Of a stretch of 64,000 nt of DNA, positions 37,501 through 64,000 are shown piece by piece. A model generated the notes under the pieces. That model saw only the letters and a program-made list of their open reading frames with translations. It did not search any database and was not told the origin of the DNA. Location: NCBI RefSeq assembly GCF_026151205.1, contig NC_087075.1, positions 9,773,303 through 9,837,302 on the forward strand. The letters run 5' to 3'. This DNA comes from Bolinopsis microptera (lineage: Eukaryota > Ctenophora > Tentaculata > Lobata > Bolinopsidae). The position numbers were made by a program, and so were the translations under genes. Numbering within the stretch: position 1 is the stretch's first letter; each line of letters begins with the position of its first letter.

Positions 37501-38608
37501 ATACTCCGAGATATTGGCCGAATGCCAAACCATGGACAGGGATAGTCTTTCGAATCGAGCAGTAACAAACCCCGTCACTGCAAATAACATTATAGCTCTG
37601 ATCGAACTATCCGCTAGATATGGTCGAGACTACAAAATGGACAGAGAAACAATTGTTGAAACAATGGAACATCACTACAAGAACTTGGAGGGAGACTGGC
37701 TAGCACTTCGTTGTTCTGGTGGCTTCCTCGGTAAAACCGTGGACAGTTTAGCTCCATCAGTCTCTGCTGTGATAGTCTCAGGGAGGTCCCTCTCTCTGGG
37801 GGTGCACGGTGAGCCAGAGATCCTGGTGGAAGGACCTCTTCACCCCAGACTGCTCCACGGCATTCTCCACAACCAAGTGGGCAAACAAAGTCTCCTCCAC
37901 TCCACCCTCCAACAGGAGTGTCTGATCTGTGTTGCTGACCTGTTAGTCGATCATCCGGAGCTGTTTAAAGGAATCCTGATAATCAGGGTTGGTTCTCTGA
38001 TACACCTGTTACAGACGGTGATGACTCCGGAGGAGGCACCTGTGGAGACACTGTCACCTGTGGAGACACTGTCACCTCTCGAGACACTGTCACCTCTCGA
38101 GACACTGTCACCTCATAGGTTGGGTAAGAAAATCAGGTACCTGCTAACATACAGTAACAGTATCTCCAGAAATGGACCATGGCAGGAACACCGGCTTATT
38201 AATGGGACTTTGGGACGAGTACCGGACAACTTCAGTTCACGTGTCTGGCTGATTCTGCAGCACCAGAACATTCGGTTTACTTGTGGTCATTGTTATCTTG
38301 TTTCAGGTGATATTCTTGGTACTAAGGTTTCGGAGCCTTTCTTTGCTATGAAGATTGAGCGGTTTTTGAACTGTTTTGAGGCTCATTCCCGAAATTTTGT
38401 TATCGAGTTGTTTCATGTTCTTGCATCTACTTTGGTGAGAAATCCTGAAGTGAATCTTGTAGAGGATTTCCATGTCTTAGATTTTATTAAGAAGAGTGAA
38501 GTTGAGATCGATGAGTCCCTGGAAATGGTATCGAAGAAGTTTATTAGTTGTTTAATTAAGTTTGAATTTGTTAAACTTGCTAACATTGAAAACTGTATTG
38601 TGTCATGA
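34554..38608 (+). CDS. PHKB: Phosphorylase b kinase regulatory subunit beta
   Basis: Regulatory scaffold of phosphorylase kinase, the cytosolic enzyme that activates glycogen phosphorylase. Exons 34554-34760, 35174-35268, 35496-35610 and 35951-38608 join in phase to ~1,024 residues (vertebrate PHKB is ~1,090). Family blocks in order: glucoamylase-like N-terminal part with ELEQTAIKTMRAILFC, CLHTKFDPDTGDEL, FIRE-type QNLIYYIERAYRIKDFGMW, SLLPRESRS, GYKRFIGDFCR, PLNYCHNEDESQD, YGITSQTPNQIESVYVWPS, LGLTGRPKRPLGSLCTSRI and VIVSGRSLSLGVHGEPEI. PRESRS, TGRP and the C-terminal CIVS favour beta over alpha. CIVS is a CaaX box; mammalian PHKB also ends in a farnesylated CaaX (CLIS). Unlike the ~30-exon vertebrate gene, 87% of this protein is in one exon, pointing to intron loss. 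An 18-bp repeat lies at 38039-38112. Confidence 0.93.
34890..35078. repeat. Homopolymer-bounded segment in PHKB intron 1
   Basis: A ~28-base G run (34890-34917) and a ~14-base C run (35065-35078) bracket ~145 bases, which include the hairpin GTCACCAAGATGTATCTTGGTGAC. The G-run/C-run layout resembles the MITEs at 51328 and 57775, but no target duplication is visible here. Run lengths may be affected by sequencing. Confidence 0.5.
38039..38112 (+). repeat. 18-bp in-frame tandem repeat in PHKB
   Basis: Four units of about GTGGAGACACTGTCACCT encode repeated VETLSP/LETLSP hexapeptides in the C-terminal part of PHKB, between the RVGSLIHLLQ block and KIRYLL. This matches a position where vertebrate PHKB has a loop of variable sequence. 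The unit length is a multiple of three, so the frame is kept. Confidence 0.9.
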
Positions 38609-39242: not shown

Positions 39243-42200
39243 ATGAGAGCCAAGAAGATAAAAGTAGAAAAAAGAGAATTCTCTAAAAGAAAAGGATTCA
39301 AGTAAGTATACTGTTGTCTGTTGTAATGTACATTGTACATTATACAGTGGAATATTACTATACAATCAAGTAATATAAACCCTTCGTTTAAATGTGCACA
39401 TTTGAACGGTACGATGAAATGAATAAAGTAACTAATAAATGAAATAATAAGTGTTGAAAGAGTAATTATATCTTTTGATCTTTGTTCAGGTTCACCAGTT
39501 GGAGTAAGGAAGATCACAAGGAACCAATATTTGGAGTAGCATTTAACCCTTACAATCACCCTGACAATCCCCCTGTATTCGCTACCGTGGGTACGTAATC
39601 ATATAAACAAGTTATTAATTATCTACTAATTAGTTTATTATTATGTATTTATTAGTTTATTCATTACTGAATAATTGATTTATTCCATTTATAATTCGCT
39701 TTTGAAGATAAAAAACTACAGTGTATCCAAATTGTCCCGGACCCTTGACAATGTACGCAATTTAAATTAATTAATTAATAATAAATAAGCCAGGTAGTAA
39801 CAGAGTAACAGTATACGAGTGCACTGACAACAGTGTCAATGTTATCCAGTCTTATTCTGATCCCTGTACTGATGAGATATTCTACACTGTGAGTTTGTCA
39901 GATGTGACTTGTTGTTTTGTTTCTATTATCTTTGTTCGTATTTTTCTTTTATTTTCGTTTGTTTTGCCTATTAATATTCCAATAATGAATAATTATTATT
40001 AATGATTAAGGTTCCAATAATCGTCGTCGATCATTTAACACTTGAAGATATCACTTAAATTCCCTGTACAGAGTACATTTCACTGTACATTTTACTCTAA
40101 ATTTCACCCCCAGGTGTGTTGGGTGTACTGCGAGACAGCTGAAGGGGTAATAGAAACCAGTGTAGCTGTAGCAGGACTTAGGGGTCTTATCAGAGTGGTC
40201 TCACTTAGGAAACTAAAGAACTTGTTCACTTGTAAGTCTTAGGAAAACTTAAATTAGGGCAATGAACGATAATTACACTAATTACACGGAAACATCCACG
40301 AAAACTACAATTTATTGTTAATATATCTCAGCTTAATGATATACATAAATTAATTTAAATAAACTAACAAAACTAACTAAACTGTATAACCCGTCAGTAA
40401 TGGGCTGCGGAGACAGTATAAACTAACTAAACTGTATAACCCATCAGTAATGGGCTGCGGAGACAGTATAAACTAACTAAACTGTATAACCTATCAGTAA
40501 TGGGCTGTGGAGACAGTATAAACTAACTAAACTGTATAACCCATCAGTAATGGGCTGCGGAGACAGTATAAACGAGTTAAAACTTCACCCCACCGATAAC
40601 AACCTACTTCTCTCCGCCAGTAAAGACAACAGTCTCCGACTCTGGAACCTCAAGACCCGCAGATGTATTCTCATATTTGGTATGTGTGTGTGTTTGTGTG
40701 TGTGTGGTTTGTGTGGTATTTGTGTGTGTGTGATTTGTGAGGTATTTGTGTGTGGTATTTGTGTGTGTGTGGTATTTGTGTGCGTTTGTGTGTGTGTGTT
40801 TGTGTGTGTGTTTGTGTGTGTGTGGTTTGTGTGGTATTTGTGTGTGTGTGTGATTTGTGTGGTATTTGTGTGTGTTTGTGTGTGGTTTGTGTGGTATTTG
40901 TGTGTGTGTGGTATGTGGGGTATGTGTGATATTTGTGTGTGTTTGTGTGTGTGTGTGTGTGGTTTGTGTGGTGTTTGTGTGGTATTTGTGTGTGTTTGTG
41001 TGGTATTTGTGTGTGTTTGTGTGTGGTGTTTGTTACCCGGTTCAGGGCAAAATGGTGAACATGTTACATGGGGGGGGGGGCCAACGCCCCAAAAGGCCCC
41101 ACACATATCGAAAATCCGAAAAGGGCCCTAGAAATCGGGGCTTTTTGGGGCCTTTTGACCCTGACCACTATTTGATAGTGTTTATGGACCATAATCTCCA
41201 TGTAAATACACTCAAATAAACATAAAAGTACTGTGCAAGTAGTCAGATAATATCATTAAAGCACTTAGCATATATATCAAACTTGATGAAATTGAAGTTA
41301 ATTCTAGGGCCCCAAAAGGCCCTACACACATCGAAAATCCAAAAAGGCCCTAGAAATCGGGGCTTTTTGGAGCCTTTTGGGGCCTTTTGACCCTGACCAC
41401 TATTTGATAGTGTTTATGGACCATAATCTCCATGTAAATACACTCAAATAAACATAAAAGTACTGTGCAAGTAGTCAGATAATCTTACTATATATAAAGC
41501 GAGACGATATATATATATTTATTTATCCGTGCCATTTTACTGACACCACGGCATCAACGTTAACGCGAATTTCCGCAAAAATCGTAAAAAATACAACTGA
41601 AACTTTTTTGACTGGGTCAAATGCTTTAATGGCCTTCAAATCAGCATGAAAAAATTAAAAATTGGCCAAGGAATAAGAATTTTAGTGCCCAAAATTTGGA
41701 CTCCCAAGTGGTGTCAAAAACGCGATTTAAATAGGTAATAATTATTTTATTCTCTCGAGCCTTGACACCACTTTAGGGTAGACGGGTTCCTGCTAGTATC
41801 ATTAAAGCACTTAGCATATATCAAACTTCTGGTCCCAAAAAAGAACCAAGACAAATACGCCTAGTCAAGAACACTGACTGGGCGAAATTTGACGAGATTC
41901 TTTACAACAACAATGATCTCCACAACACCTGCGTTAACACACCACACGACATTGATCACAAAGTTAACACCATTAATACTGCTCTCCGAGCAGCCTTTGA
42001 GGAGGCATGTCCCATTACTTACATCTCCAGCGCTGTCAGAAAACCACCCTGGCTAACTCGAGAAGTTGAGGAAGCACAGAGGGGTATAAGACGCAAACTC
42101 ATCACAGCACGTCGAATCAAAACTGATGCTTCGTGGCTCGCTCTTAGAGAAAGCAACAAGCAATACAACAAGATCCTGTCCAACTCCCAGCGCAATGCGT

Positions 42201-45200
42201 GGCGGAAATTCTGCGCAGACACAGAATCGGTTAAGGAATCTGGAAGGATGAACAAGATTCTGAAAACCTGTACTGACACCAATAACAAACTTGAAGCCGT
42301 TTATAAACCAAATGGCGAACTCATCAAAAACGCAGAGGAGACACTGGAGGTCATGACACAAACCCACTTCAAGGAGAGTGTTACTGATCCGCCAGTTCCG
42401 CCTCTCTGCCCCTTACCCATCTCCACAGACTTACTAGACAAAATCTACAGCCCTGAAAGAATCGAAAAGGCTCTCCTATCCTTCGATCCCTTGAAGGCTG
42501 CAGGACCTGACACTCTAAAACCTATCATATTCCAGAAAGCCTGGGCTCATATCAAAGACATAACAAAAAACATTATGACAAAAAACCATGAAACGCAACA
42601 CATCCCAACTTTGTGGAGGGACTCTCTTGGAATCTTTCTCCCTAAGCCTGGAAAAACCGACTACAACAAAGCTAAGTCATTTCGAACGATCACTCTTTCG
42701 CCTGTGATGTTAAAGTTGCAGGAGAAAGTGATCTTATGGCATATGCAACATGACCTCAACATTGCTAATGATATCAACAAACGACAATTCGGCTTTAAGA
42801 AGGGCTGCTCCACAGAAGCGGCACTTCATAAAGTTACTCACACCATTGAGCGCAGAATAGCCAAGAAAGGATATGTCCTAGGTGTCTTTCTAGATATAGA
42901 GGGCGCCTTCGACAATGTCTCGTTCAAGGCTATCTCTGAAGCAGTCAAGGCTACGAAAGTGGACTTGGCTACAGCACAGTGGATCATCAACATGGTAACC
43001 AATCGATTCATCACACTAAATCATAAGGATAAGTCGAGAAGGGTACGGATCAGGCGAGGTTGCCCCCAAGGAGGCATTCTCTCTCCTTTTCTCTGGAACC
43101 TGGTAGTCGACGATCTCCTTTCCTTTACCGCAAAAGACATCCCGGGTTACCTGCAAGCCTTTGCGGATGATCTGTTGTCTCTAGCGGAAGGGGATGATTT
43201 AGATATCATCTGGGACCGAACATGCAAAACTATTAAAACGATAGAAAATTGGTGCAGAACCAAAGAGCTATCTATTAGCGCCCTTAAAACTCAGATAGTC
43301 ATGTTTACCTGGAATAGTAAGTGGACTTTAAGACCTATAACAGTTGGCAACAACATTATAGGTCTTTCCAAGTCTGCTAAATTTCTAGGAGTGACCTTGG
43401 ACAGCAAACTCAACTTCAATGAACATATCATCAACACCACCAAAAAAGCCACGGCATCCCTCATGCAATGTCGAAGAGCTGTCGGCCCCACATGGGGTAT
43501 GAGCCCCAAAACATGCAAATGGATGTACACGGCTGTCATCCGTCCAATCCTATCCTACTGCTGTAGTATATGGATCAGGGCTACTCAAACGGACTATAAC
43601 GCGAAGAAACTCAAACGTGTTCAGGCATTGGCACTCAGAATGATGTCTGGTGCCATGCCAAGCACACCTTTTATCGCATTGAATCACCTCACCGACACTT
43701 CTGACATCATACTGTTCCTGCAAGGCGAAGCAGCAAAGGGTGCGGCCAGGCTACAAGCTTATGGCAGCCTCACTCTTGAAACTATCGCCTTCAGGAAGGG
43801 AACTATCAAAAATCATACCACTATCAACAAACAATTCATGGCAGATCTCATTATCCCACCTAGAGCAACGAGAGACCTAACAACACCAACCATGATGCTG
43901 GGACGGCACTTCACCGTCACAACTCCTGGAGCCGATACCACTGAATATAGGAATTCACTTCAAAACACCATTGACAACATTACCAGTGAAACGATCACCT
44001 GCTACACTGACGGGTCACTCACAGACTCAGGATGCGGGGCTGGCTATATCATCACAACTGACAACAATAACACCACCCTTGAAGAAAGATCATTCAAGCT
44101 CCCTGATTATTGCACTGTTTACCAAACAGAGCTCACCGCCATCATTGAAGCTTGCAAATATCTCTCTACCTATACCAACACACATATCATCATATGGTCT
44201 GACAGTCTCTCATCTATACAAGCTATCTCTGCGCTTTCAACGCGGAGTAGAACTACAAGAGACTGTTACGACTCTCTTAATGCACTCGGAACCAACAACA
44301 CGCTAGATATACGATGGATTGCAGCACACATCGGATTGTGGGGGAACGAAAAAGCAGATGAGCTGGCCAAGCTTGGTACAACCAGTGAATCCACTTTGAA
44401 GTGTCCAATTCCACAATCCTACATCAAGCGTCAAATCGACAACAAAGTCAATAGACTGAATCAGGAAACTTGGTTAACTGACGGTCCCAGACACACCAAA
44501 CTGACACTCGGCCACAAGCATGCCAAAATCATCAAAAACCTCAACACTACACTCAGCAAAAACAGACAAGATTACAGAACTGCAGTTCACCTCATCACGG
44601 GTCACTGCGGCTTAAACAAACACCTTCACACCATTTGCAAATCAAACACCAGTGCTTGTCCTATGTGCGGCGACGGAGAGGAAACTGTCTCACACTTCCT
44701 TGGACAGTGTCCAGCAATTGCCCAAATTAGAGGTCAATATTTCCAGGACTACTACCTCTCTGTCAATGACATATTCGACAACCAACACATCACCACAATT
44801 GTCAATTTCGCAAACCGCACCAAACGCTTAATTGTGCCGGAAGAGCTGGATCAGACCGGGGTGACTTAAAGTATTATCTCATATGCTGTCTCGTCTCGTT
44901 TTACTTTTCCAAACCCAGCTGGCATTTAAGCGTATCATTTTGACTCATATATCATCTTACACCATCCTCCACCAATCACTCTGATTTCACCGGCAACCTT
45001 CCCCAAGGTTGCCACACCCCAGAGGTAGGCAGAGCATCTCAATGCTATCCTCTCGTGGGCTATCTTGGCCCAGCCTCTCTTAAAAAAAAAAAAAAAAAAA
45101 AATATATCAAACTTGATGAAATTTAAGTTAATTCTAGGGCCCCAAAAGGCCCTACACATATCGAAAATCCAAAAAGGGCCCTAGAAATCGGGGCCTTTTG

Positions 45201-49030: not shown

Positions 49031-49136
49031 TGACGTCATCGCAACGCCACGTGACGTCATCACAACACCACGTGACTTCAACAGGTTAACAGTGGCAAGG
49101 ATCACGTGACGTCATTACTTCATCTTAATGACGTCA
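49031..49136. promoter_or_regulatory. Cluster of four TGACGTCA (CRE-type) palindromes
   Basis: TGACGTCA at 49031-49038, 49052-49059, 49107-49114 and 49129-49136, interleaved with CACGTG boxes. The last copy overlaps the stop codon of the SH2D5-like gene. The first two lie in a short tandem duplication (GCCACGTGACGTCATC). CREB/ATF binding is inferred from the consensus. Confidence 0.5.
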
Positions 49137-52100
49137 TTGATGAGCAGGTAACAGGGTGGTAAATCCGGCGTTAGGTGGCTCGTCGTAGTCCGGATCTTCT
49201 TCATCGAAATCGCTGCTGTCTGGCTCGTCACCGTATAGAGGGTTATTGCGGTTCATTGACAGCTTGCAAATTAGTCCTGGAGAAAAAGAGGGTTATTGCG
49301 GTTCAATGATTGTAGAGAGGCCGTTAGTTATCAAGACTAGGTGGAGCTTAAATCATCAAGGAATTTAAATCAAAAATGTCCTTTCATATTAGCAGAGAAG
49401 AGAACAGGATATTAAGAAAATCAATAAAAAGGATAAAATTTAGTTCCACGCACCTTCTTTTTCATAGCAGTGATGATGTATCAAAGATGATAGGTCTGGA
49501 AACACTCGTCCGCCACCCTGATAACGTGATCTTACGTTAATCACGTGATCTTACGTTAATCACGTGACACACACCTGTACATGATGTACGACTAGTTATA
49601 CTAATTACGTGACACACATGACTAGTTATATTGGAGTAGAAGATCTGAATCTCTGTCGCACCAATCTGTGCCTCAGTTTGAACTATCAATTTTTCAACTA
49701 ATTAATTAATACAATGTGCTCATTAGTTACCTAATGAGTTTACTAATTAATTACCTGGAAGTAGTAGCCGTCAGTGTTCTGTGATATTAAGTAGTGGTAG
49801 GTACCGGAGGAGCCTCTACCCGGACCCCGTAGTGATAACGCGTAGCACCCTGACAATGAATTATAATTAATTAATTGATTAGTAATAGCTTATAATTAAC
49901 TGATCTAGTCAATTTAATAACATTCAAAATTATCTGCTGATTGGTAGTGCGCTGCAAAGAGAAATTATACTATCTAATAACCGTATATAGGGGGATAGGA
50001 ATGCAACCGAAAAAAAGCAGGAGGAAAAATTACAAATAATTGTGAATTACAGTCCCACCTTTGTGAGTCTGAGAATTACGGACGATGAAGGCGCCCTCAC
50101 ATTCCATACTGAGACATTCCAGAGCTATGTGCCTGAGAGATAGTAATGATTATCACTTAGATGAATAAATGAAAAAGGGCAAACACCGGCTGACCTCTTT
50201 AATATTGGAATATGTGAATATTACAAATTGCAACTCGCGAATATGCACTATGCAGATATTATGTTAACATATAAAAGTTTACCAACTAACCTAGGAATGC
50301 CAGCCTGGAACCACTCCTGTTCTTTCAGCTCCTGAGGGATGGTCATCTGGTCCTCGCAAATACGGCTGGGCCGCCTCAGTTGTTCCTGTTGAACCACTGC
50401 AGTGGAAACTGGGACGCAGCTGCCACTGCGCTGACATCGCCCCTTTCCTACTTGGTCCGGGTAGACTGAGAGGGGGAAGGGTTAAAATAAAGGGCAGGGA
50501 GACAGGACGAGGGGGAGGGGGCAGTGAGATTTTGTGCCCCATCCTTATTCGTTTAATTACATGCAAGGAAAGTAGCCCTAAAGTTTGCTTGAGCCAGTTC
50601 AAAAGTCAAAATGGTTTGGAATCTGTCCTGTGAAAATATCGACACAATACCGGTGCAATAATAATATTAGCGCAATACAATTTCAGCTAATAAAATTAAC
50701 AGTATTGTCAAGCAAACTGGAATAAGACTTACTAGGAGACGCGTCCTGTTCAGTATTTATATTAACAGGAGACACGTCGTGGAGCCAGTCTTTTATACGA
50801 GACTCTGGGTCCAGGTCCTGGAGGTGCTTTATATCTGCCTGGTACCTGAACACAAGATTTGGTTACTGATTATTGGTTAGTAGGTACCTGAACACATGAA
50901 GTTAGATTATAGTTGGTTGATGGTTACTGGTCCCGGTTACTTAATTCTGGGACATTTCTGGGACATTCTGGGACACTTTTAAATTACCATCGTGCGAAAG
51001 GAAGGGGGGTTAAATTAATGTTCGTACATTCTATCACTAAAGGTTTTGCTCAGAAGTTTACAAATATCAGATTATCTACAGATGGATACTGTTTGGTCGA
51101 TTAAACCAACTTCAATTTGAGATCTTGATATGCATTGGTTTAATGAAAACAAAATATTGGTCGCAGATAATGATTGAAGTTATTCACACAAAAGATAATT
51201 AACAAAAAGAGCAAATTTTCAAATTCAACCCCTTTTTAGTTTATCAAAAATAGCTAAGTAATTAGTAAAGTCCTTGAGCCCCTGCTGAAATGCAGAATGC
51301 TCTGTCTTGGATTAAATAATACAAAGTGGGGGGGGGGGGGGGGCAATGGCATAAAATGTAGACTTTTTCTATGGAGAAAATGGGAAAACCCTTGAGTAAT
51401 TCTCCATTTATGCCATTTTAATTTTATGCCATTGGCCCCCACAAAGTTCTCCAACCAACCATATTTCAATCACTGACTGAGTAAACCACACACTGACTGA
51501 GTAAATCACACACTGACTGAGTAAATCACACACGTCACACTGACTGAGTAAATCACACACTGACTGAGTAAATCACACACTGACTGAGTAAATCACACAC
51601 TGACTGAGTAAATCACACACTGACTGAGTAAATCGCACACTGGACTGAGTAAATCACACAGATGCTTTAGTCCTTGATACGGATAATGTGAAGGACGGTG
51701 GAGGTGTTGACGTGGTTCTGTTCATCTTCTGGACATTCAATGTTTGTTCAGTTGTCCAGTTCCTATAGTTAGGCATCCTACTGAAGTACAGGAAGGGATT
51801 GATGGCCGCATTCAGCAGACCACAGAAGAAATAAAAGACGATGTGGCTGTACCACCACAAAAATCTACTCTCAATCATGACGTCATCGACTTTAAATTGT
51901 GCAAACTGTCCGAGAAAGTAAGTCAGCTGCAGGATAAAACCAGGTAGATTACACATCAGAAACACGGCTGTAAAGATGGCGATTGTAACTGTAACTTGTA
52001 CAAACATGGCGTCTTCTTTTGCCTGGAAATTGTTCTTGGTTGTTCTCCGTGAATTCCTCTGGCTTCTCTTTGTTACAAGACGAAAAGTACCGTATGCAAA

Positions 52101-55100
52101 GCTGCTGAAGACCAGAACAGAAGAAAGAAGCAGCTCTGTTTGAACAGCCAAGGAGTACACATAATGTATGGGAACTCTCTCTCCTTTAGGGCGAATCTCG
52201 CACATGCTCACATCCTCTTTAAACTTCGTCTCAAACCAACCAGCAGACAAAACAACCACATCAACAAAACAGATGAAGGTCATGTAAGCAATGATAACCT
52301 TGATAACAACATCAGCTCTTATCTTTCGAAGTGGGAATGTCATGGCTATCGTTCTGGTGACACTCACTATCATAACCAAGAACATGGCGAGTTTCAGAAG
52401 AACAGTCATAGCCACAGTCCAGGTGGCACAGAACACGTTATCTTCGAATAACACGGGGGTACGGGAGTTGAAGAGGGATATAATGACAGGTATAGCGGTG
52501 ATACAGGAGCAGATATCTACCGCACAGATCATGGTGTACAGTTTGGGATGGATAGCTTTCTTCCTCTGCTGCCAGAAGTACACCAGAGAGGTAGAGTTAC
52601 CTATGAGGCCGATTAGAATGAGAAGGACCGTTAAGGAAGCTATGGCGAGGTCCGCTGTTTCACTATAAATCCCATTAGCTGAAAGCTTTTCTGGAGATAT
52701 GTTTGGCTTCCAGACTAGGTTTTGGGGTCCTTGCAGAGAAGATGTCGTGTCAGGAAGGGATGTTAAGGTGTGTAAGTCACGTGACATGGACGATGTAGTA
52801 GAAGACAGTGTCACGTGGTGCAGACCACGTGTTACAGAGTATGTATCATGTGGAGTTGTAGGGTTTATAGGCGAGAGTGGCGAGGTTGGAGGAAGGGGTG
52901 ACATGGTAAACCCAGGAGTCGATAGATTGGATGTTGGGAAGGTCGGGGGTGGTGCTGTTTTTCTTCTGTTAGTGAGGATTGTCATCTTGTCTCCAGTGGT
53001 CCGGCTTTAAAATAATTAATATTTAACGTTATTTGTTTACAGACGGTGTCATTGTTAGTTTTAATGTAGAGGAGGCATTAGATACGAAATAGGTCAAGAA
53101 TTAAACTGATAATCAGAGGGCAATTTTTATCCCAATGTCAAAGAAGTTTCGTCAATTATTTAAATATATTAGGGCAAACAAAATCAGCTCATTCGAAGAG
53201 ACAACAATCGCAAGGAAAACAAATGGATCAACCAGAATTGCAAAACAACACACAACCATCAATTAGAACGTGACCATGAAACATACAAAACACAATATAA
53301 AACAAATGGTCCGATTACGTGGAGGCTTGAAGTACTCTCTTTTAAAGAAATGCAGTTAATTTTCTCCTCAAACACATCTTTTGTTGTGCAGTCTGCTGTT
53401 CGGATATTGGGCTTTTCACTGTGGAAGATGCGTGCGCCCAGGGCTCCTTAAAACGATCTCGGAAATTGATTTCAACAAAGCCATGGTTGAATTTATCTGC
53501 GACATGATGCACCGACAGTTTCTCAAAAATTTAAGATCGATTCAATTGAATATTCAGGCTGCGATGAAATGACAAAACTGTTCGATTGAGATGCAATTAT
53601 GAGGCTGACACTACTGCAGACATCGATCTGACATTTATAATTCTATTCATTAAAACGAGCCCACATCGAAGGTTACCAATGAAATTGACAAAATATTAAA
53701 CCTGGTGCCTTTGGTCACCAGATCATCAGGATTTTGATACATTGAATATCATTAGGGCATAATATATAATTAATTAAAAATATAATTTTTGCTGCTAATA
53801 ACATGGTTCCTTAAAAGAATTGAGAAACGCAGTGAGATTCAGGTTGTTTTGATTAAATAACTTGAGCTCACAATCATGCAATACCACTTTTTAACCAAAA
53901 TTATAATAATTCACTTGCAAATTATTAAATTAAAACATCATCTTCCTAAGCGTACGAGTACATCTGTGATCTTGCTAAGAGAAATCTGAAGCTAAAGTTT
54001 AAAAACTTCCCAGACCTAGTACATACGTCCTAAAGAAAGCAATACCCCAAATCGCACAAAGTTTCAGCGTCAATATTCCCAGTTCGAACGCAGTGCTTAG
54101 ACATAATATACTGTTAATATCCATACAATAATTCAATATTCTATAAAAGGCTACTATTAGCAAAATGCTCAAACAGTGTCACAGCAGCTTCTATGCTGAT
54201 TTTACTTCAACTGAAGAGTGGTAAGTTGAAAGACGAGAGTGGTTTAGAGTGATTTCTGTTGTTGACTTTGCTGAGAACAGAGCAGATTCTCCTTTAATCA
54301 AGTTTGGGATGGCCACCGTTTTCTCTGTGGTCCATATCCTGTAGTTAGGCATCCGGGAGAAGTACAAACAGGGGTTAATCGCAGCATTGAGCAGCCCCAT
54401 AAAGAATTGGAAGATGAGGTGACCATACCACTTCATAAACCTGTTCTTTAAAAACACATCATTGATTTTGTTTTCAAATTGTGCAACAAAATACGCTAGC
54501 TGTAAAATAAAACAAGGCAGGTTACACACGAGAAACACAGCGGTGAAGATGGCAATTGTTATTGAAACATTAAGGAACATCTCATCAACTCCGGACCCCT
54601 GATCGGAGTCACCTCTCCGTGTTATTGCCTCCCTCCTCCTAGCCATCAGACGGAAAGTACCCAACACAAAGCTGAAGAAGATAACAACAGAGGAGAGTAG
54701 AAGCCCAGCCTGCACAAATATAGAATACATGTAATGCACAACGGAGCTCTTCTCTGTGACGTGTATTTCACACATTGCTTCTTTCTCATTGTACCGGGCG
54801 TGAAGTCCAACACCGGTTACCAACACTGTGATATCTACCAGTATGACGATGATTATAAAGCCGATGATGAACTTGACGACAACTCTGAACCTTATGATGT
54901 GGTGTGGAAATATAATAGCAATCATCCTGGTCATACTCACCACCATCACCAGGAACACGGCCAGCTTGAACAGTGTCGTCATCATGATAGTCCAGACGGT
55001 ACAGAAGACAGTACTCTCGAATAACATGGCATGTCGGGATTTTAGCAGGGATATAATAACAGGGATGGTAGCGAGGCAGCAGCTGATATCCACACAGCAT

Positions 55101-58100
55101 ATCATGGTGTAGAGTTTAGGGTGGATTGCTCTCTTTCGGAGCTGCCAGAAGTAGATAAAAGAGGAGCTGTTACCCAGGATACCAAATATGGTGAGGATAA
55201 CCAGGGTGGTGGCTATGAGGATGTCTGCTGTTCCATTGAAGGTGTCTGGTTGTGGTGAAGATAGTTGGTCTGAGAGGAGGGGGGAGAAGGTGGGACGCAA
55301 CCACACTAAGTCGTTTGGTTGTGGTGACGTTGTTAAAGCCATCTTTTCGTATGTAGAAAGGAGCTGGAATTTTGGATTTAGTCACGAAATTGCGGGCAGA
55401 ATGTATCAACAAAAGTAAACAAATTTATTAGCAGTGATTCAACGGAAAATTTCTGAAAAGGAAATTTTGGAAGGAAACTTGAATGTAATTGTATACATAC
55501 ACAGAGCGAGGATGCTTACTTAGAATATCGATACATTTACAACAAACTAAAATAACCTCATGAGGTGCCTAATGATGTAAATAAAGGGTATAAAGAAATT
55601 ATATTTGTTCAGAACGATACTCAAGCTTATCAACATTGTGTATTGTATTATTTGTATTTGCTTGTAATTTAGCAACTATTCATGCGATGTGGAGTTGTAA
55701 TTTAACTTGACTAAAAAAGAGCAACTGAAGAGGAATAAAAGTGAAAGTTTTGAACTAAAGCATTTATGTTGAAAATGGCAATAAAATCAGCGAACATTGA
55801 CGGGATCGTAACACAATCCCTTCATTCAGGTGGTGAAACTAATTTACTCACTAAAACCATCGGTCTACGCTCCAAGTACAACAAACAAACAAAGCATGAA
55901 TAGTGAATACACGGAAATATCTCGCAAAGAACAGAAATACCCAAGAAAATCTTGCATAATTATATCATAAAATGGACTGCAAATTCCTTTGTTCAGTGAT
56001 GTGACGATATGAAGGGAAATCAAGTGTAGATCTAGATAGTCAGACTGCCTGTACAATCGTTCCTTCAGATTATCATTCCTTCAAATAAAAATAGATAACC
56101 TTTGTAGTTCATAGGACGAGTTTCAATGGAGTTTGGTATTTTGCAATTATTGCTTGAGCTTTATGAAGTGTGTGATTGTTATTTAGCAATTTCAAGAACA
56201 AAGCCACCATGTTAATTTCACAATACGTGGGAATGTCAATTTTCAATCTGAAAGAATGCTAAGTATTCAATGTGATGATTTCAAACCTTTTCTAAAAGTT
56301 GTACGAAATGCAATGCAACAATAATTAAAATCTAATCACTATGTAGTTTGCCTTAAATAAAAACTTTAAATTATATGTTTTTATATCCTCCGCCAAACTA
56401 CATGTTCAGCATCAGCCTAATGTAGATTGTTAATATTGATCGCAGAATTTGTTGATGTTAAAAATCCAAAATATCTCATAGTAAGGATAACCAACAAATT
56501 CTTCCAAGTTATCGTTAATTCAAGGGAGAATCAGCAATACAAACGTTTCACCGAGACCACCCACCTTACATGACAGAATGAATCTACAATCTACTTATAC
56601 AACTTTAGAAGTTACAACTAATAGAAACTAACTAAATCCAAAATAAACTGCAATGATAATTGGGGGACGGTAACTGTTTCCTGTCCCCAAATACAAAAAA
56701 AAAGCTATTACCTGCTATTACAAGCTATTACCTGTCATGGTTTGAGAAAGCAGGGGACTTGGCACTGTTCCTTGATAACTGCTCCCCCGACTTCAACCCT
56801 TCTAACCGTAACCCATGGTTACCGTTACCCAGTGGAGTAGCGTTACCATGGTGGTTGTTACCATGGTTACCATGGTTACCACCGTTACATGTGGTTATCT
56901 TGTTTCTCTGGCAGTTCCCATTTGGTTGTTGTTGTCGAGGTGTGTTCTGGCAGACGTTGGATCGTTTGCGGAGGATTGCAGCGCTGATGGAGGTGAGGTC
57001 GGAGTTAGGGGAATGGAGGGATATTAGAGCACATTAAAGAGGGGCTGCTCGGAAAAACCAGAAAATACGGGTAATCTAAGGAAACGGGAAATTGAGAAAA
57101 CCCGAAAAACGAAGTTATGAAAAACAGTTTCTATAAAGAATCTTGGGTACTGTAATAAATCGTAAAAAACTTTATGTAGAAACTAAAATCAATCTAATTT
57201 GAATACATCTTATTTATCTATAACCAGCTACTACGATGAAAAATCTTACTAAACTATAACTAAAATGAAACTACAAAAAGTTGAATCAGTACCTGTCGCT
57301 GGTACCGGTACTACTACTACTATTAGTGTGCTGTGAAGTAGTATCACATTTAGTCCTGCGTTTCAGGGTCCTCTTACAGTACGCTAGTCTAAACGCGTTA
57401 CCCAACGTTGTGTTTATCTCACTAGCCTGGGGGTATTTATAGGTTAATTATTAATTAATTAATATTATTTACAGGTTAATTATTAATTAATTAATATTAT
57501 TTACAGATTAATTATTAATTATTTAATACTATTTACAGGTTATTAATATTAATATTTAAATTACGTACAACGATTCAGATCAGCCTAAAATGTTTTCTTT
57601 TTGGAGCATTTTGGGGGAAGTTCTGGGGAGTTGAAAGGGCCGAGATTGAGCAACCCTAAATCTCGAACTAGCTTTAATTGGATCTAGCTTAGTTACTGAA
57701 TTTTTCCGCTCACGTCGGGAGTTAAGAGGTTTAGCAGCAGGCTTTATGTATTATGTAACGGTTGATAGTCAGGTGGGGAGGGGGCCAATGGCATAAAAAT
57801 TTAAAATAGTATAAAATGGAGACTTTTTCTATGGAGAAAAAGTACCATAGCCCATTTTATACCATTGCCCCCCCCCCCCCCGCCCCCCCCCCCCCCCCCC
57901 CCGTCAGGTGCAGCAACAGGAAACATCTTCGCAGTTTTGAAGCTCAATCCTTGAGTTTGTTTCAATACCTCAATAGGAAGTTAAGAAAATGTGTATATTG
58001 AACTATTCTTACACGCCGACCACTAACTATTATTATATACGTGTTTTTAATATCACTACATCGTTTTCGTAAAATATCTAAATACTTCGACTGTAACTTC

Positions 58101-61100
58101 CGTGTGGTTTGGATACTGTAACATTTCTAAACGTTATCTAAAAATACACAAATAAAACAAGTTTGTGGTCTGGTCCTACCTAGTCCCGATCAGTTCACAA
58201 ATGACAAAAGTATAATAATATCCGTCTCATAATAAAACTCATCCAGAATTCATAATATAAATATCAAATAAATCTTTTAAGCAGTTCTTAGTGGTCAGTG
58301 GAATTTCATATAATGAATTGAGCACATTATCGAGCATGTAAAGACACGCGTAACACATGTATTTCCAACAGTTTATACATTGTATACACTGGCAGCTGAA
58401 GTAAGCCGGGTAAGCAAAGAATAGTTTCTCTTGCGACCACAATATGTTAATGTTTCCTAGATTGTGCCACGAGCGGGGAGGCTTTACACGTGCGGGGAGG
58501 CTTTGCACGTGTGGGGAGGCTATGCATCTCCACAGAAGTTGACTACTTGGGAAGTTACCAACTTTTGATTTTCAAGACCGGTCCTAGTTTGTTTTTTTTT
58601 CCTAGTGGCTTATTTGTTGTTTTTTTTTAAAAGTACGATTTGATATGTAGAGTATTTTTGAAATCGGTAAACCTTTGCACTACTTACATACTACACTATA
58701 ACTGCACTACATTATCTACATTACAACCGGAGCGGTTAAGACTAATTTCTAAGTAAAAACTTGATACATTACTAGAGTAGTATTAAACTTGTTACATTAC
58801 TAGAGTAGTTTTACAAAGATACCTTCTTACTTCTTCATGCAGTTGCTTTTTTGTCGCTTAATAGCCTTTACAAAACTTTGTGTTGCAGAACAGGTGATGA
58901 TCACCTGAGGTGATCTATCCCGGGCGAATCTACCTATCGCTGCCATAACAAAAACAACATTTCTTTCTGTAGTGTGGCTTTTGTATTGACTATCTTTGTT
59001 ATCTTAACTTGCTTATTTTATAACGCAGTGGTATAACTTACACCACTAGTTGTTCTGGCAATAACTTAGAATTGCAGTCAGTTTTGTTGTGGGTAAAACT
59101 GTGCAGTAAATTTAACTTTTGTACAAAATTTGTTGACCCTTCATCCATCAATTAAATCAAAGTTTCTGTGAAATCTGTCATTGGTCACAATTTGTAATTT
59201 TCAAAGGAAAGGAAATTTCACAATGTTTTAATAACAGACTAAACCATGTCAGGATGATAAAATACATCGTCTCCCCGGACGCTTTCTCCTTAAACCAGCT
59301 CCTCACGGAACACACCACAACATTCTACTCACTTCTCCTCCCCTGTCTCCTGGCACCATGTCTCCTCATAGGTACTCCTTCCAACCTCCTCGCTCTAAAC
59401 CACTTCCTAACCTCCAACAGAGAGACCCTATCAGAGCAAGTGTGTGCGTGTATGTCTGTGTTAGGTGCTATGGTCTGTGTGGCTCAGATTCCCCTGTTGG
59501 AGAGTCTGGTGACTGAATGTGGAGGAGGCGGAGGAGGCGGAGGAGGAGGGGTGGATAGAAGGGTTGTGTTAGCAGTGGAGGACTGGCTGGAAATACTGCA
59601 GAGAACCCTGATATTCTGTGGTTTGGTTCTGAGTGGGAGTAAAGCACTGAGGATACTGGTACCTAGGTGGAGGATGACGGGGGACCACTCGGGAGTGTTG
59701 TTAATATTGTATTGTATGAAGTTGTTTGGGGAGTTGGAGACAAGGAAGGGAGGTGGGGTGAACTCTGCCAGGAACCCTATGAGAGTGGATCTGTGTGGAG
59801 AAGAGGGAGGGACGGGGATGTTGCAGGGGTGGAGCAAGTGGTTTTATTGTTTAGATGCTGTGGTGATCCCTTTGCTGATGATGTTCTGTATAATTGTTAT
59901 CGTTTCTAATCGGTATTTCAGATCAATTACCAGTAGTAGTGCGATTATAGTTATCATTAGTTCTACACTTTTTATCAGTAGTCTTCCAAACTTAGTTTTT
60001 GGTTTTCAGATCACTGTAACCGAGATTGGTATCATGGATGTCGCTTCCATTGACTGTATTCGTATTTTTAATCGCATCAGTTTAGTTATGATAGTAACAT
60101 TTAATGCCGTCGTGTTTTTATGGAAGAAGAAGTCTTTACAAAATTGTGAATTGAGAACCGGTAAAGGATTGAGACCTAGTTTTCTGTAAGAAATCTTATT
60201 ATTCAGATTAGTTGTACCTTTTGCTCGTACTGTTTAAAAATAGCTTATTTAAAAATAGTATATTAAATTTTTGGCACATATTAATTGATATTTTGCTTTT
60301 TATCTGTGATTTTAAAGATTATTAATATTGAATATTATCAAAGCCGGGTTTGAATGACTGCGCTTATAACTCATAACAACTAATTTTCAATTCTGAACAC
60401 ATAAAATGGTTATAGAATTATCATGATAGTAAATTTGAATAACAAAGGTAAAAGATTTAAGTACAATACAAACCTCTTTGGGATTATCGAATATAAAAGC
60501 ATGGCAATAGGTCTGCGAGTTGACACCCTCAGGGTCTTTGGCAGCGAATGCTAGGAGTCCATCTTTAGGTTCGGCCACAGAGTATGATATCCTCGAGAGG
60601 GCGTGAGCCATTAATACGCACTGAAGAGATATAGAAGTTTATACGCACTGTGGTAAATTACAAGTTAACACACATACTAAGGGGAAAAATAAGTAAGCCG
60701 GAATAAGTCAGTTTGTTAGGTTGGAAAAAAATATCTTTATTAAAAATTTGAATTTGTCGTAGTAGTAATTTTGGTCAGCCATACCCACAGGCCACAATCC
60801 ACATGGGACGAATTGATCGTAAAGCACGCTTGCGGGCAAGAAAACATACAAAAATTACGCGCGTGCGCGCGTTCTTATTTACCATAAATGTTTCCGCGCG
60901 CTACTGAAAGAACACGGCGATTTCACATGCTAGGAAACAATCGAGCAAGGTCGTCATCTTTAGCGAAGTTAAGACATGCATTCAAACTTCGCAGATTTAC
61001 TGAGCCAGCCGAATTACTATCGCTAAACAGTTCAGTATTTTTACGCATTGCTTAGCATATTAAGCCGCAGGAGCACTTTTTTGAGCGGTCAATCCGGATG

Positions 61101-62185
61101 AGGTCCGGAAACGGTTAAATCAACAGTGTGTCTGTGTATCTGGTAGCGGCAACTTCTTTGAACTCAAGTGCTGTGTGTTTCAGTACGTTTACTTGCGATT
61201 TAAGTACATTAACCACAAACATATGTGTTCAGCTTGATGTTTTGACACACCAAGACAATCAAGTTCAGGCAAGCAGCCAAATATATTTCTGATAAATTGT
61301 TAATAATCATGTCAGAAGTTAAAAAGCCTATCAATTATTAAACAGCGTCAATTCTAGAAGTTATATACTTTAAAGTGGACGTCGTCAGTACTAGCTACGC
61401 AAGCGCGTGTACAATAAATTGAAGTACCAATACGATGTTCAATGTTCATTTAATTGGATGTAATTACCGCAAATTACCGCAAACGGTTGTCAAATGCCGC
61501 GCAGTCGCATCTTAATTCCATCAACAAACTTTACACCAACAAGGTCATTAAGTAATAAGCTATTTCCAAAACAGCGCTGAACGGTCAGTAATTAGACTGA
61601 CAGTGTGGATTGGGCTAAGCTGGTAGAACCATGCTTAAAAGGTTCAAACGTTATGTAAAATGAGATTGAAATGTTATATACAGATGATTGGAAAGTGGTT
61701 AAAAGGTGGTAAAAAGTGGCAAAAATGCTAGGGACGTGGTAAAATGTGGAAAATTCTGGAGAAGTAATAAAATATCTACTCACATTAACTTCTTTATTTA
61801 GAACTTTTACTCCTTGGTCCAACATTTGTAAGGCTACCAGCTTGTAGTCTTTACGGGATTTTGATTTGTACTCTGCCTGTAAATAAAACATGGTATAATC
61901 ATAACAATTATTCATAATTAATGATTAAAATAATAAATTATTAGTTTTAAATTATGTAGTAATTTGAGCGTGCTTGCCACGAAGTTCTGCTCAGAATATC
62001 CAGCTTGCAGACTTCTAGACTCTTTGTTGCTGTGTCCTAGAGCACACGTTAAACTTATCAGTATCAGGGTCTTATCAGCCACAGTTAAACCAATACCACA
62101 TGACTTACTCTAACCAATACTAATTCAGATGTGCTATCACGTGATTGAGATGAACCAATAAGAGGCTCAGGTTCGGGACCAGCAG
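49134..62185 (-). CDS. SH2D5-like: SH2D5-like adaptor with PTB and SH2 domains (N-terminus missing)
   Basis: Phosphotyrosine adaptor. Exons in transcript order: 62109-62185, 61784-61876, 60474-60620, 57293-57426, 56732-56983, 50733-50845, 50291-50465, 50059-50132, 49755-49849, 49454-49517 and 49134-49276. All eleven join in phase with GT-AG borders (~455 codons); the start codon exon is not identified. The PTB domain spans the first four: LIGSSQSRDSTSELVL, LVALQMLDQGVKVLN, CVLMAHALSRISYSV, FAAKDPEGVNSQTYCHAF and the final helix INTTLGNAFRLAYCKR. The LMAHAL-RI-YS block followed by CH-F is very like vertebrate SH2D5. An Asn/His/Gly-rich linker follows, then SH2: EWFQAGIPRHIALECL, GAFIVRNSQ (FLVRES equivalent, Arg kept), YHYLISQ and FPDLSSLIHHH. 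The acidic tail has NPLY and DPDYDEP, possible phosphotyrosine sites. PTB-before-SH2 order fits SH2D5 and SHC, not tensin. Three GPCR-type genes lie in its introns. Confidence 0.85.
51328..51440. mobile_element. G-run/C-run MITE with 7-bp target duplication (copy 1)
   Basis: It starts with a ~15-base G run then CAATGGCATAAAATG and ends ATTTTATGCCATTGGCCCCC. The flanks are ACAAAGT at 51321-51327 and 51441-51447. The middle has GACTTTTTCTATGGAGAAAA, shared with the copy at 57775-57902. No coding capacity. Confidence 0.88.
51470..51660. repeat. 20-bp minisatellite abutting a GPCR stop codon
   Basis: About nine copies of CACTGACTGAGTAAATCACA, one with an inserted CACACGT. The array reaches the TGA stop (51654-51656) of the minus-strand GPCR, so the repeat forms its immediate 3' UTR. 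Confidence 0.92.
51654..52985 (-). CDS. Class A-like G protein-coupled receptor A, single exon
   Basis: A 443-residue seven-helix receptor with no intron. A ~100-residue Ser/Thr/Pro-rich extracellular N-terminus has NLS and NST sequons but no obvious signal peptide. TM1 carries Asn of LIGNSTSLVYFW and TM2 the Asp of CAVDICSC. TM3 follows the disulfide Cys of NVFCATW and ends VSVTRTIAM in place of DRY. TM6 has CNLP where most class A receptors have CWxP, and TM7 reads LNAAINPFLYFSRMPNYR (NPxxY-like, final Tyr replaced by Phe). The ligand is unknown. It shares most motifs and the LYTMIC, TAVFL-CNLP and YFSRMPNYR blocks with receptor B 1.2 kb upstream on the same strand: a tandem duplicate pair. 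It lies inside the large intron of the SH2D5-like gene, same strand. Confidence 0.9.
   Translation of the reverse strand: MTILTNRRKTAPPPTFPTSNLSTPGFTMSPLPPTSPLSPINPTTPHDTYSVTRGLHHVTLSSTTSSMSRDLHTLTSLPDTTSSLQGPQNLVWKPNISPEKLSANGIYSETADLAIASLTVLLILIGLIGNSTSLVYFWQQRKKAIHPKLYTMICAVDICSCITAIPVIISLFNSRTPVLFEDNVFCATWTVAMTVLLKLAMFLVMIVSVTRTIAMTFPLRKIRADVVIKVIIAYMTFICFVDVVVLSAGWFETKFKEDVSMCEIRPKGERVPIHYVYSLAVQTELLLSSVLVFSSFAYGTFRLVTKRSQRNSRRTTKNNFQAKEDAMFVQVTVTIAIFTAVFLMCNLPGFILQLTYFLGQFAQFKVDDVMIESRFLWWYSHIVFYFFCGLLNAAINPFLYFSRMPNYRNWTTEQTLNVQKMNRTTSTPPPSFTLSVSRTKASV
54191..55342 (-). CDS. Class A-like G protein-coupled receptor B, single exon
   Basis: A 383-residue paralogue of receptor A with a shorter (~45-residue) N-terminus. 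TM1 is ILGNSSSFIYFWQLRKRAI, TM2 contains Asp in CCVDISCC, and the Cys of TVFCTVW precedes TM3. The DRY position reads VSMTRMIAI, TM6 has VCNLPCFILQ and TM7 INPCLYFSRMPNYRIW. A basic third intracellular loop (MARRREAITRRGD) suits G-protein coupling. Like A it lacks introns and is nested in the SH2D5-like intron 50846-56731. The extra upstream length of A versus B suggests that divergence is fastest at the N-terminus. No ligand class can be inferred; the altered DRY and CWxP motifs argue against assigning it to a standard aminergic or peptide group by eye. Confidence 0.9.
   Translation of the reverse strand: MALTTSPQPNDLVWLRPTFSPLLSDQLSSPQPDTFNGTADILIATTLVILTIFGILGNSSSFIYFWQLRKRAIHPKLYTMICCVDISCCLATIPVIISLLKSRHAMLFESTVFCTVWTIMMTTLFKLAVFLVMVVSMTRMIAIIFPHHIIRFRVVVKFIIGFIIIVILVDITVLVTGVGLHARYNEKEAMCEIHVTEKSSVVHYMYSIFVQAGLLLSSVVIFFSFVLGTFRLMARRREAITRRGDSDQGSGVDEMFLNVSITIAIFTAVFLVCNLPCFILQLAYFVAQFENKINDVFLKNRFMKWYGHLIFQFFMGLLNAAINPCLYFSRMPNYRIWTTEKTVAIPNLIKGESALFSAKSTTEITLNHSRLSTYHSSVEVKSA
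55343..56731. other. Intron of SH2D5-like gene, upstream of receptor B
   Basis: AT-rich intronic DNA that should hold the promoter of receptor B. No repeat, exon or motif stands out. Confidence 0.45.
57440..57570. repeat. AT-rich 32-35 bp tandem repeat near a splice acceptor
   Basis: Four copies of ACAGGTTAATTATTAATTAA plus TTAATATTATTT lie just upstream (minus strand) of the SH2D5-like exon starting at 57426. On the minus strand they precede its CCCCAG acceptor. Confidence 0.85.
57775..57902. mobile_element. G-run/C-run MITE with 8-bp target duplication (copy 2)
   Basis: GGGGAGGGGGCCAATGGCAT at the left and ATACCATTGCCCCCC with a ~30-base C run at the right. The flanks are GTCAGGTG (57768-57775, sharing one base with the edge) and GTCAGGTG (57903-57910). 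It shares GAGACTTTTTCTATGGAGAA with copy 1 at 51328-51440. Confidence 0.87.
58470..58535. repeat. ~21-bp tandem repeat, three copies
   Basis: Three units of GCGGGGAGGCTTTACACGT type (58474, 58493 and 58513 onward) with G/A and C/T variants. It lies in the SH2D5-like intron. Confidence 0.75.
59254..60189 (+). CDS. Divergent GPCR-like multi-pass membrane protein, single exon
   Basis: A 311-residue intronless frame on the plus strand, opposite to its host SH2D5-like gene, inside the intron 57427-60473. It shows about six or seven hydrophobic segments: FYSLLLPCLLAPCLLIGTPS, VCACMSVLGAMVCVAQIPLL, LIFCGLVLSGSK, GVLLILYCMKL, AVVIPLLMMFCIIVIVSN, IIVIISSTLFISSLPN and ISLVMIVTFNAVVFLW. The first has an Asn after the Pro (PSNLLALNHFL), as in TM1 of class A receptors, and the sixth has SLPN where CWxP is expected. 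There is no DRY or NPxxY. A run of ten Gly encoded by GGAGGC repeats and a Gly-rich loop (LETRKGGGVNS) are unusual. It is probably a fast-evolving receptor; a non-receptor membrane protein remains possible. Confidence 0.65.
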   Translation: MIKYIVSPDAFSLNQLLTEHTTTFYSLLLPCLLAPCLLIGTPSNLLALNHFLTSNRETLSEQVCACMSVLGAMVCVAQIPLLESLVTECGGGGGGGGGGVDRRVVLAVEDWLEILQRTLIFCGLVLSGSKALRILVPRWRMTGDHSGVLLILYCMKLFGELETRKGGGVNSARNPMRVDLCGEEGGTGMLQGWSKWFYCLDAVVIPLLMMFCIIVIVSNRYFRSITSSSAIIVIISSTLFISSLPNLVFGFQITVTEIGIMDVASIDCIRIFNRISLVMIVTFNAVVFLWKKKSLQNCELRTGKGLRPSFL

Positions 62186-63567
62186 CTGTCTTTAACTCAA
62201 CTTTAAACATACAGCCTCAAGTAACCTTATCAAATTTGAAAACTACGTTTCCAAATGATTAGTTGATGGCACCGGTTATCTACCGGTTATTTACCGGTTC
62301 TCTACCGGTTTTCTACCGGTTATTTCTTACAATGCAGTAATTGGAGAGTTTCTATGGCGATTTTATGACATCTTATTCTCACAATGTTTAGATGACTGTG
62401 CCTACCTTTTTAGGGTACTGGGTAGTAAAATATAACCATTACTCATTTTAAAATAAACCCAGGCACAGAAATCTAAACCTCATCTTGAGTTTTAAAATAA
62501 AAACCTCAAAGTACAGAAATCTAAACCTCATCTCATGCCACCTAACAGGAACTTAACTTCCCGGACATCATTCCAGACATTCCGGGACCATTCCCGGACA
62601 CCATTTCATTAAGTAATCAAGTGATCAACCAACCCCCACGCATTACCAATCCCTGTTAAAACCTGGTATTATATTTATACCCTTAAATTTAACCTATGTA
62701 GTTTTTAACACCGATAATACGATGATGGTGATAAGCGATATATTATACAGTAGGATACATATAATAAGCGCTTTTAATATCATGTTACAGGCATTATTAT
62801 GGGGTTTTTCGTAATAATTACATGCATAATTAAGGTGTAATATGTTATTTAATCTTTGTAATCGTATGAAGTTGTTAAAAACTGATACATTAATTTAAAG
62901 AGGGTAATATTGTCGAGGGTTTGTAAGTAATTGGAAGTTGTCAGAAAGATTAATTATTGCACGTTATTAATTCGCTGGGCTTAATGATAAAGGGTATATT
63001 ATCATGACGTGTTAATAATGATTGTTGAAATATGATCTTTACAGGGGAAACACAGTTGTCACGTACGACTTCTTTTAGATTGTGAGACGAGGTTTTATCG
63101 TCATATTCTTATAATCATTTTAATCTATTATAACCTATTATAACCTATTACAACCTATTTTAACCTATTTTAACCTATTATATCGTATCTTCATATTTGA
63201 ATTTTAATTCTATTGAGCCGCACATCATTCTAAAATATCTAAATTATCTGTAAGTCATAAAGTTTATATGGTCAGAGTACCACCCCTCAACAGTCAACGT
63301 GCCCCTTCACGGTAAGGTATTGAGAGCTTTTAATTAAACATAATATGGTTCGTTGACCATGACATATCTGAAACATTTAAAATGTTCTCTAAAGAATAAT
63401 TCTACTGATGAGAGCGGAAGTAGGGGTCTAACACATTGAAATTTGACACCCATATCATCTTGCAGGGTGTAAATATATCGTGTGTCAAGATGGAGCTGCG
63501 TAATAAGATCTGTACTGGATATAGTGGATACAGGGCAGATCTACAAGTCACGTGATGTACTGAGCAA
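62186..63567. other. Upstream flank of the SH2D5-like gene
   Basis: Expected to contain the missing first coding exon and the promoter, but I could not identify a start. Five ACCGGTT boxes lie at 62271-62322. A 60-bp imperfect duplication (CACAGAAATCTAAACCTCAT and its neighbour) spans 62460-62545. A short TTATAACCTA array runs at 63123-63182. Confidence 0.45.
62271..62322. promoter_or_regulatory. Cluster of five ACCGGTT boxes upstream of SH2D5-like
   Basis: ACCGGT recurs five times at ~11-13 bp spacing, beginning just 86 bases upstream of the first recognised exon (minus strand). ACCGGTT matches the CP2/Grainyhead half-motif. It may equally be a simple ~11-bp tandem repeat. Confidence 0.45.
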
Positions 63568-63570
63568 TTG

Positions 63571-64000
<430 letters not shown>

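Follow-up and report, generated by a model that had tools for sequence, protein, structure and literature searches.

Why should three uninterrupted receptor-type reading frames lie inside the predicted introns of a single signalling adaptor gene? The question is raised by a stretch of the genome of the ctenophore Bolinopsis microptera (assembly GCF_026151205.1, contig NC_087075.1, positions 9,773,303 to 9,837,302), referred to here as the window, which is 64,000 nucleotides long and contains no N. The adaptor gene, the host, is read from the minus strand; two of the frames, receptors A and B, lie on the same strand and resemble G-protein-coupled receptors (GPCRs), while the third, frame C, is a divergent GPCR-like frame on the opposite strand. 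Judged from sequence and taken as one joint explanation, it is probable that the host is a ctenophore adaptor gene of the PTB-SH2 kind, laid out like SH2D5, and that three one-piece receptor-type frames, two parallel and one antisense, are nested in its introns. Such an arrangement would be genuine yet unremarkable, since genomes of this type commonly contain both nested genes and receptors without introns.

Three frames in two introns of a predicted adaptor gene

The host was rebuilt as ten coding exons running from 61876 to 49134 and spliced by script. The exons are listed below together with the frames that lie between them.

51654-52985, minus strand: receptor A, an intronless class A GPCR of 443 amino acids on the host strand, in intron 50846-56731 (Pfam 7tm_1, E 1e-11)
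54191-55342, minus strand: receptor B, an intronless class A GPCR of 383 amino acids on the host strand, in intron 50846-56731 (7tm_1, E 5.3e-11; 52% identical to A)
59254-60189, plus strand: frame C, divergent and GPCR-like, antisense to the host, in the 3047-base intron 57427-60473 (open frame, profile, alignment)
61784-61876, minus strand: host exon, PTB strands, phase 0 to 0 (GT-AG, phase; part of a 121-amino-acid PTB piece)
60474-60620, minus strand: host exon, PTB core, phase 0 to 0 (GT-AG, phase; PID E 5.1e-5 over the PTB stretch)
57293-57426, minus strand: host exon, PTB C-terminal helix, phase 0 to 2 (GT-AG, phase; PDB alignment)
56732-56983, minus strand: host exon, low-complexity linker, phase 2 to 2, the least certain exon (GT-AG, phase; not significant alone)
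50733-50845, minus strand: host exon, linker, phase 2 to 1 (acceptor TTCAG, donor GTAAGT, phase)
50291-50465, minus strand: host exon, SH2 start, phase 1 to 2 (GT-AG, phase; SH2 E 2.4e-13 in the spliced frame)
50059-50132, minus strand: host exon, SH2 with the FIVR arginine, phase 2 to 1 (splice model, SH2 match)
49755-49849, minus strand: host exon, SH2, phase 1 to 0 (splice model, SH2 match)
49454-49517, minus strand: host exon, SH2 end, phase 0 to 1 (splice model, SH2 match)
49134-49276, minus strand: last coding exon of the host, acidic tail and stop codon (splice model)

All nine introns of this model are GT-AG and phase-consistent, and the exons join into a single frame of 429 amino acids whose one stop is the final one. 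The splice was read on the minus strand around the exons of the original prediction, which gave nine exons in an open frame ending at the stop codon 49136-49134; the tenth, 61784-61876, can be added in frame ahead of them. Exons 50733-50845 and 56732-56983 and the exon starting at 60620 had been placed correctly, with GT-AG borders and matching phases, and the host proved larger than first proposed, with ten coding exons between 61876 and 49134. The coding frames of A and B fall within predicted intron 50846-56731 and that of C within 57427-60473. These receptor-bearing introns measure 5886 and 3047 bases, and the remaining seven 158 to 1163. The claim of three uninterrupted GPCR-type frames in introns of a PTB-SH2 host is in this way upheld by the ten-exon model, as far as predicted splicing goes.

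The identity of the host is indicated by its domains. Without its first exon, the spliced frame matches SH2 (E 2.4e-13) and, over the C-terminal part of the PTB domain, PID (E 5.1e-5), in the order PTB then SH2. With the tenth exon added, the 121-amino-acid PTB piece finds in the PDB the PTB domains of ANKS1B (E 7.9e-7) and GULP1 (E 1.2e-6). Both domains stand in one frame under the predicted splicing, from which the first PTB exon or exons are missing. When the whole genome was searched with the host, the ten best matches all lay at its own locus, the next (E 2.3e-4) was an SH2 stretch on another contig, and no second strong copy was found. Two other identities were considered and rejected. 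Proteins of the SHC type are marked by an SHC-type PTB domain and by Grb2-binding YxN motifs in the linker; among the eight matches of the PTB piece up to E 10 there is no PDB sequence named SHC, and the 429-amino-acid frame holds no YxN. Tensins have the order SH2 then PTB, and this identity was dropped on the domain order. The resemblance to SH2D5, which we take to hold at the level of layout only, lies in an N-terminal PTB and a C-terminal SH2 domain. This layout is common to the host and to SH2D5 as described in two sources (PMC11684657, PMC7530234); these give human SH2D5 a tryptophan in place of the FLVR arginine, whereas the host keeps the arginine (FIVR). SH2D5 is described there as mammalian-specific (PMC11684657).

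The bracketing of A and B does require that the PTB and SH2 exons belong to one gene. It does not depend on exon 56732-56983, because PTB exons and SH2 exons flank the receptors on either side. Several observations weigh against a single gene. Taken by itself, linker exon 56732-56983 does not reach significance, and a Pfam scan of the spliced frame showed no domain match in the linker. The codon-usage score of the host exons does not favour the modelled frame (summed score 45.8, against 55.4 and 25.1 for the alternative frames). Open bridges of at least 200 nucleotides number 13 in the real sequence, 12 of them within the receptor frames, whereas 100 shuffles averaged 0.84 and gave at most 9. 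No earlier PTB exon was convincing by eye in 60600-63600, nor in a further 20 kb outside the window, 5 kb of it N. The PTB and SH2 halves could, then, be two neighbouring genes. One, with the PTB domain only, would end near 56.7-57.3 kb; in line with this, exon 57293-57426, if left unspliced, runs into a stop immediately past its donor. The other, with only the SH2 domain, would begin near 50.8 kb. A and B would in that case be intergenic, and C alone would be nested. Against this, every junction phase agrees across the receptor gap, including the critical ones (2 to 2, then 2 to 1), and PTB followed by SH2 in one gene is the layout reported for SH2D5 (PMC11684657). On balance we consider two adjacent genes unlikely and, as a matter of judgement, regard it as very probable that the two halves form a single host gene.

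Receptors A and B and frame C

A and B are complete, uninterrupted open reading frames, each with an ATG start, within the 5886-base intron. Both pass the curated cut-off of Pfam 7tm_1 (45.3 bits for A and 42.9 for B; cut-off 30.5), in agreement with the original prediction of uninterrupted GPCR frames on the host strand. The class A signature comprises GN in transmembrane helix 1 (TM1), cysteines before TM3 and in loop 2, the arginine of DRY, and NPxxY. The alignments of A and B show as conserved residues GNS, FC and MC, VTR or MTR, and NPFLY/NPCLY; in the DRY region the arginine is kept, while the acidic residue and the tyrosine are not. When the structure of B was predicted with A supplying the single additional row, the model showed seven long helices plus an eighth, at a mean predicted local distance difference test score (pLDDT) of only 44.7. 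By their profile matches and motifs, A and B are rhodopsin-like (class A) GPCRs.

The two receptors are identical at 52% of 347 aligned positions and are sisters in a 22-row tree (support 100/99). Jukes-Cantor (JC) estimates of their divergence are 0.38 for nonsynonymous (dN) and 2.0 for synonymous sites (dS), the latter near saturation (proportion of synonymous differences, pS, 0.70), which leaves the ratio of about 0.19 a rough one. With dS near saturation the pair must be old, and the low ratio indicates purifying selection. The genome, 264.65 Mb in 232 contigs, was searched for their relatives, and the match lists hold the best candidates (95 of 804 in the search with A, 147 of 1679 with 7tm_1). 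Among the matches listed, the nearest relatives of A outside the window lie, with others, at C1:22.90 Mb and C4:8.39-8.41 Mb. The intron that holds A and B also contains, at 51325-51440, one copy of a repeat about 100 bp long that is dispersed through the genome; copies elsewhere make up 47 of the 48 intron matches listed (again best candidates).

Frame C is a different case. It is open over 311 codons from its ATG and over 350 from stop to stop, and matches no Pfam family, 7tm_1 included, up to E 1. A profile of 12 rows chosen with A gives it 13.5 bits, compared with 3.7 at most for 200 shuffles of C, and with the open frame this confirms its description as a divergent GPCR-like frame on the opposite strand. 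When seven further class A receptors from this genome were scored with the same profile, three came out above C and four below. Because three of the seven outscore it, the score points to kinship with GPCRs and not to A's family in particular. A 21-row profile giving C 39.5 bits was rejected as circular, nine of its rows having been chosen by C; without them the score is the 13.5 bits given above. The similarity lies mostly in TM1-TM4, and SK and FNAVVF stand where the DRY-region arginine and NPxxY are expected, neither of which is conserved. A genome search with C returned 13 matches at E<=0.001 besides itself, 6 of which overlap listed matches of A. None of the 13 overlaps a listed 7tm_1 match; A and B are also outside that list. 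In the 22-row tree C stands alone on a very long branch. A single clade of A, B and C is rejected by the approximately unbiased test (p-AU 0.013), which shares the long-branch problem of C, and the grouping of C with all A-type rows is not rejected (p 0.133). The structure predicted from the single sequence (pLDDT 40.2) is uninformative. By profile and alignment C is kin to GPCRs; membership of A's family is likely, though not settled, and the frame is best called a degenerate or atypical GPCR relative, not an ordinary receptor.

Origin of the receptors

The search with A lists 97 matches, A and B included, and 91 of them are without an internal stop; for 7tm_1 the corresponding figures are 142 of 147. 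Contigs C1 to C13 hold 96 of the listed matches to A and 146 of those to 7tm_1, and two relatives of A on C3 are each split into two rows among the matches listed. Both lists favour single-frame genes, and the intronless shares are to be read as upper estimates. With this limit, intronless genes appear to be usual in the receptor group of A and B, which would be a large, mostly intronless class A group. Since most listed relatives are likewise without internal stops, the absence of introns in A and B is no sign of recent retroposition.

The original prediction had offered retroposition and ancestral intronless receptors as explanations for the lack of introns. The first loses its ground with these counts, and the second fits better, intronless frames being normal among the listed relatives. 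Since neither receptor has introns of its own, it could still be proposed that the pair, or the gene from which both descend, entered the intron by recent retroposition. This we hold to be most improbable: no multi-exon parent is found among the 97 listed matches, in a search that favours single-frame genes; there is no poly(A) remnant, the longest run of adenines downstream measuring 5 bases behind receptor A (examined to 51150) and 3 behind receptor B (examined to 53900); the intron matches other parts of the genome, among the best candidates, only through the dispersed repeat; and the divergence of the pair, at a dS of about 2, is old. The further suggestion that the receptors expanded inside the host is compatible with A and B, which are sisters, and is not supported for all three together. 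Expansion of the whole trio in place was dropped on the rejection of the A+B+C clade, with the caution that C's long branch imposes. In the account that we favour, A and B would have arisen by duplication from one another, sharing one intron on the host strand, and C, which lacks the signature GPCR residues, would have come in or diverged independently, on the opposite strand and in the second of the two introns.

Other genes of this genome and other parts of the window gave observations of their own. Glutamate receptor genes are often in one piece too, with 10 of 32 PF10613 matches in open frames of at least 900 codons. A genome search with the glutamate receptor chain ML032222a, whose prefix ML presumably stands for Mnemiopsis leidyi, found a best match 75% and 72% identical over its two halves, a likeness by which a ctenophore lineage is very probable. 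For one intronless glutamate-receptor gene (L046), the best PDB match over the ligand-binding region is this same chain. A full-length glutamate receptor (L041) does not share this lineage signal, with kainate receptors on top and ML032222a absent among the 60 PDB chains listed, and neither does the leader pattern of Hormiphora described below. Within the window, retroelement-type reverse transcriptase frames lie on the plus strand at 806-2494 (RVT_1) and 41777-44869 (RVT_1 and RNase H). An open frame of 906 codons at 35888-38608, also on the plus strand, matches Glyco_hydro_15 and KPBB_C; it probably encodes a subunit of the phosphorylase kinase alpha/beta type, and a single exon would then hold much of the coding sequence. 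The window ends in a long AGGGTG-type tandem repeat (63574-64000).

Transcription of host and receptors, and known nested genes

How host and receptors might be expressed follows two lines. In the first, each receptor would be transcribed from its own start within the intron and end there, and the host transcript would be spliced across the receptors, which would be removed with the intron. The interaction of host and receptors would then be passive, through transcriptional interference or shared open chromatin, and not a dedicated adaptor-receptor circuit. On the gene models, such passive nesting is the best-supported account, and shared or competing transcription is possible. In the second, A and B would be processed from the host pre-mRNA, for example by spliced-leader trans-splicing, and the adaptor, A and B would be co-expressed in an operon-like manner. 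Both receptors are indeed parallel to the host, acceptor-like AG sites were seen upstream of both receptor ATGs (by eye, with no control), and trans-spliced leaders are reported for ctenophores (PMC8527503). Antisense C cannot arise in this way, and the leader pattern of Hormiphora is not enriched in this genome, with 4 matches at 3 mismatches versus 1 in the control, a count that weighs against this reading. We consider such operon-like processing of A and B quite improbable. Less probable still is its fuller form, in which the adaptor primary transcript would be an operon-like precursor with one promoter, A and B would be released by trans-splicing and polyadenylation, and antisense C would tune it. 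If it were true, a phosphotyrosine adaptor and two receptors would be made from one promoter.

Passive nesting has parallels among known genes. In Hormiphora californensis, 2357 nested intronic genes are reported in 1654 hosts, with one host holding four (PMC8527503). The likeness to the present locus is that the nested genes lie wholly inside a host intron, several per host, and that many are parallel to it; those genes were annotated with Iso-Seq, whereas A, B and C are predicted from sequence alone and in another species. Among vertebrates, P2RY12 and P2RY13 in MED12L, GPR82 in CASK and CXCR6 in FYCO1 are GPCRs nested in a larger gene of another kind, MED12L hosting more than one (Table 1 of PMC3933685). 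That table holds different-strand pairs only, whereas A and B are on the host strand and C is not, and the kinship of the receptors forms no part of the likeness. No closer match to the arrangement was found in the literature looked at, which is not proof of absence.

At the level of predicted genes, the case leaves current understanding unchanged. It adds a clear instance of parallel nested receptor genes in an early-branching animal, the receptors coming from a large, mostly intronless group. Given the mammalian-specific label of SH2D5 in PMC11684657, a ctenophore PTB-SH2 adaptor with an intact SH2 arginine may matter more than the nesting itself.

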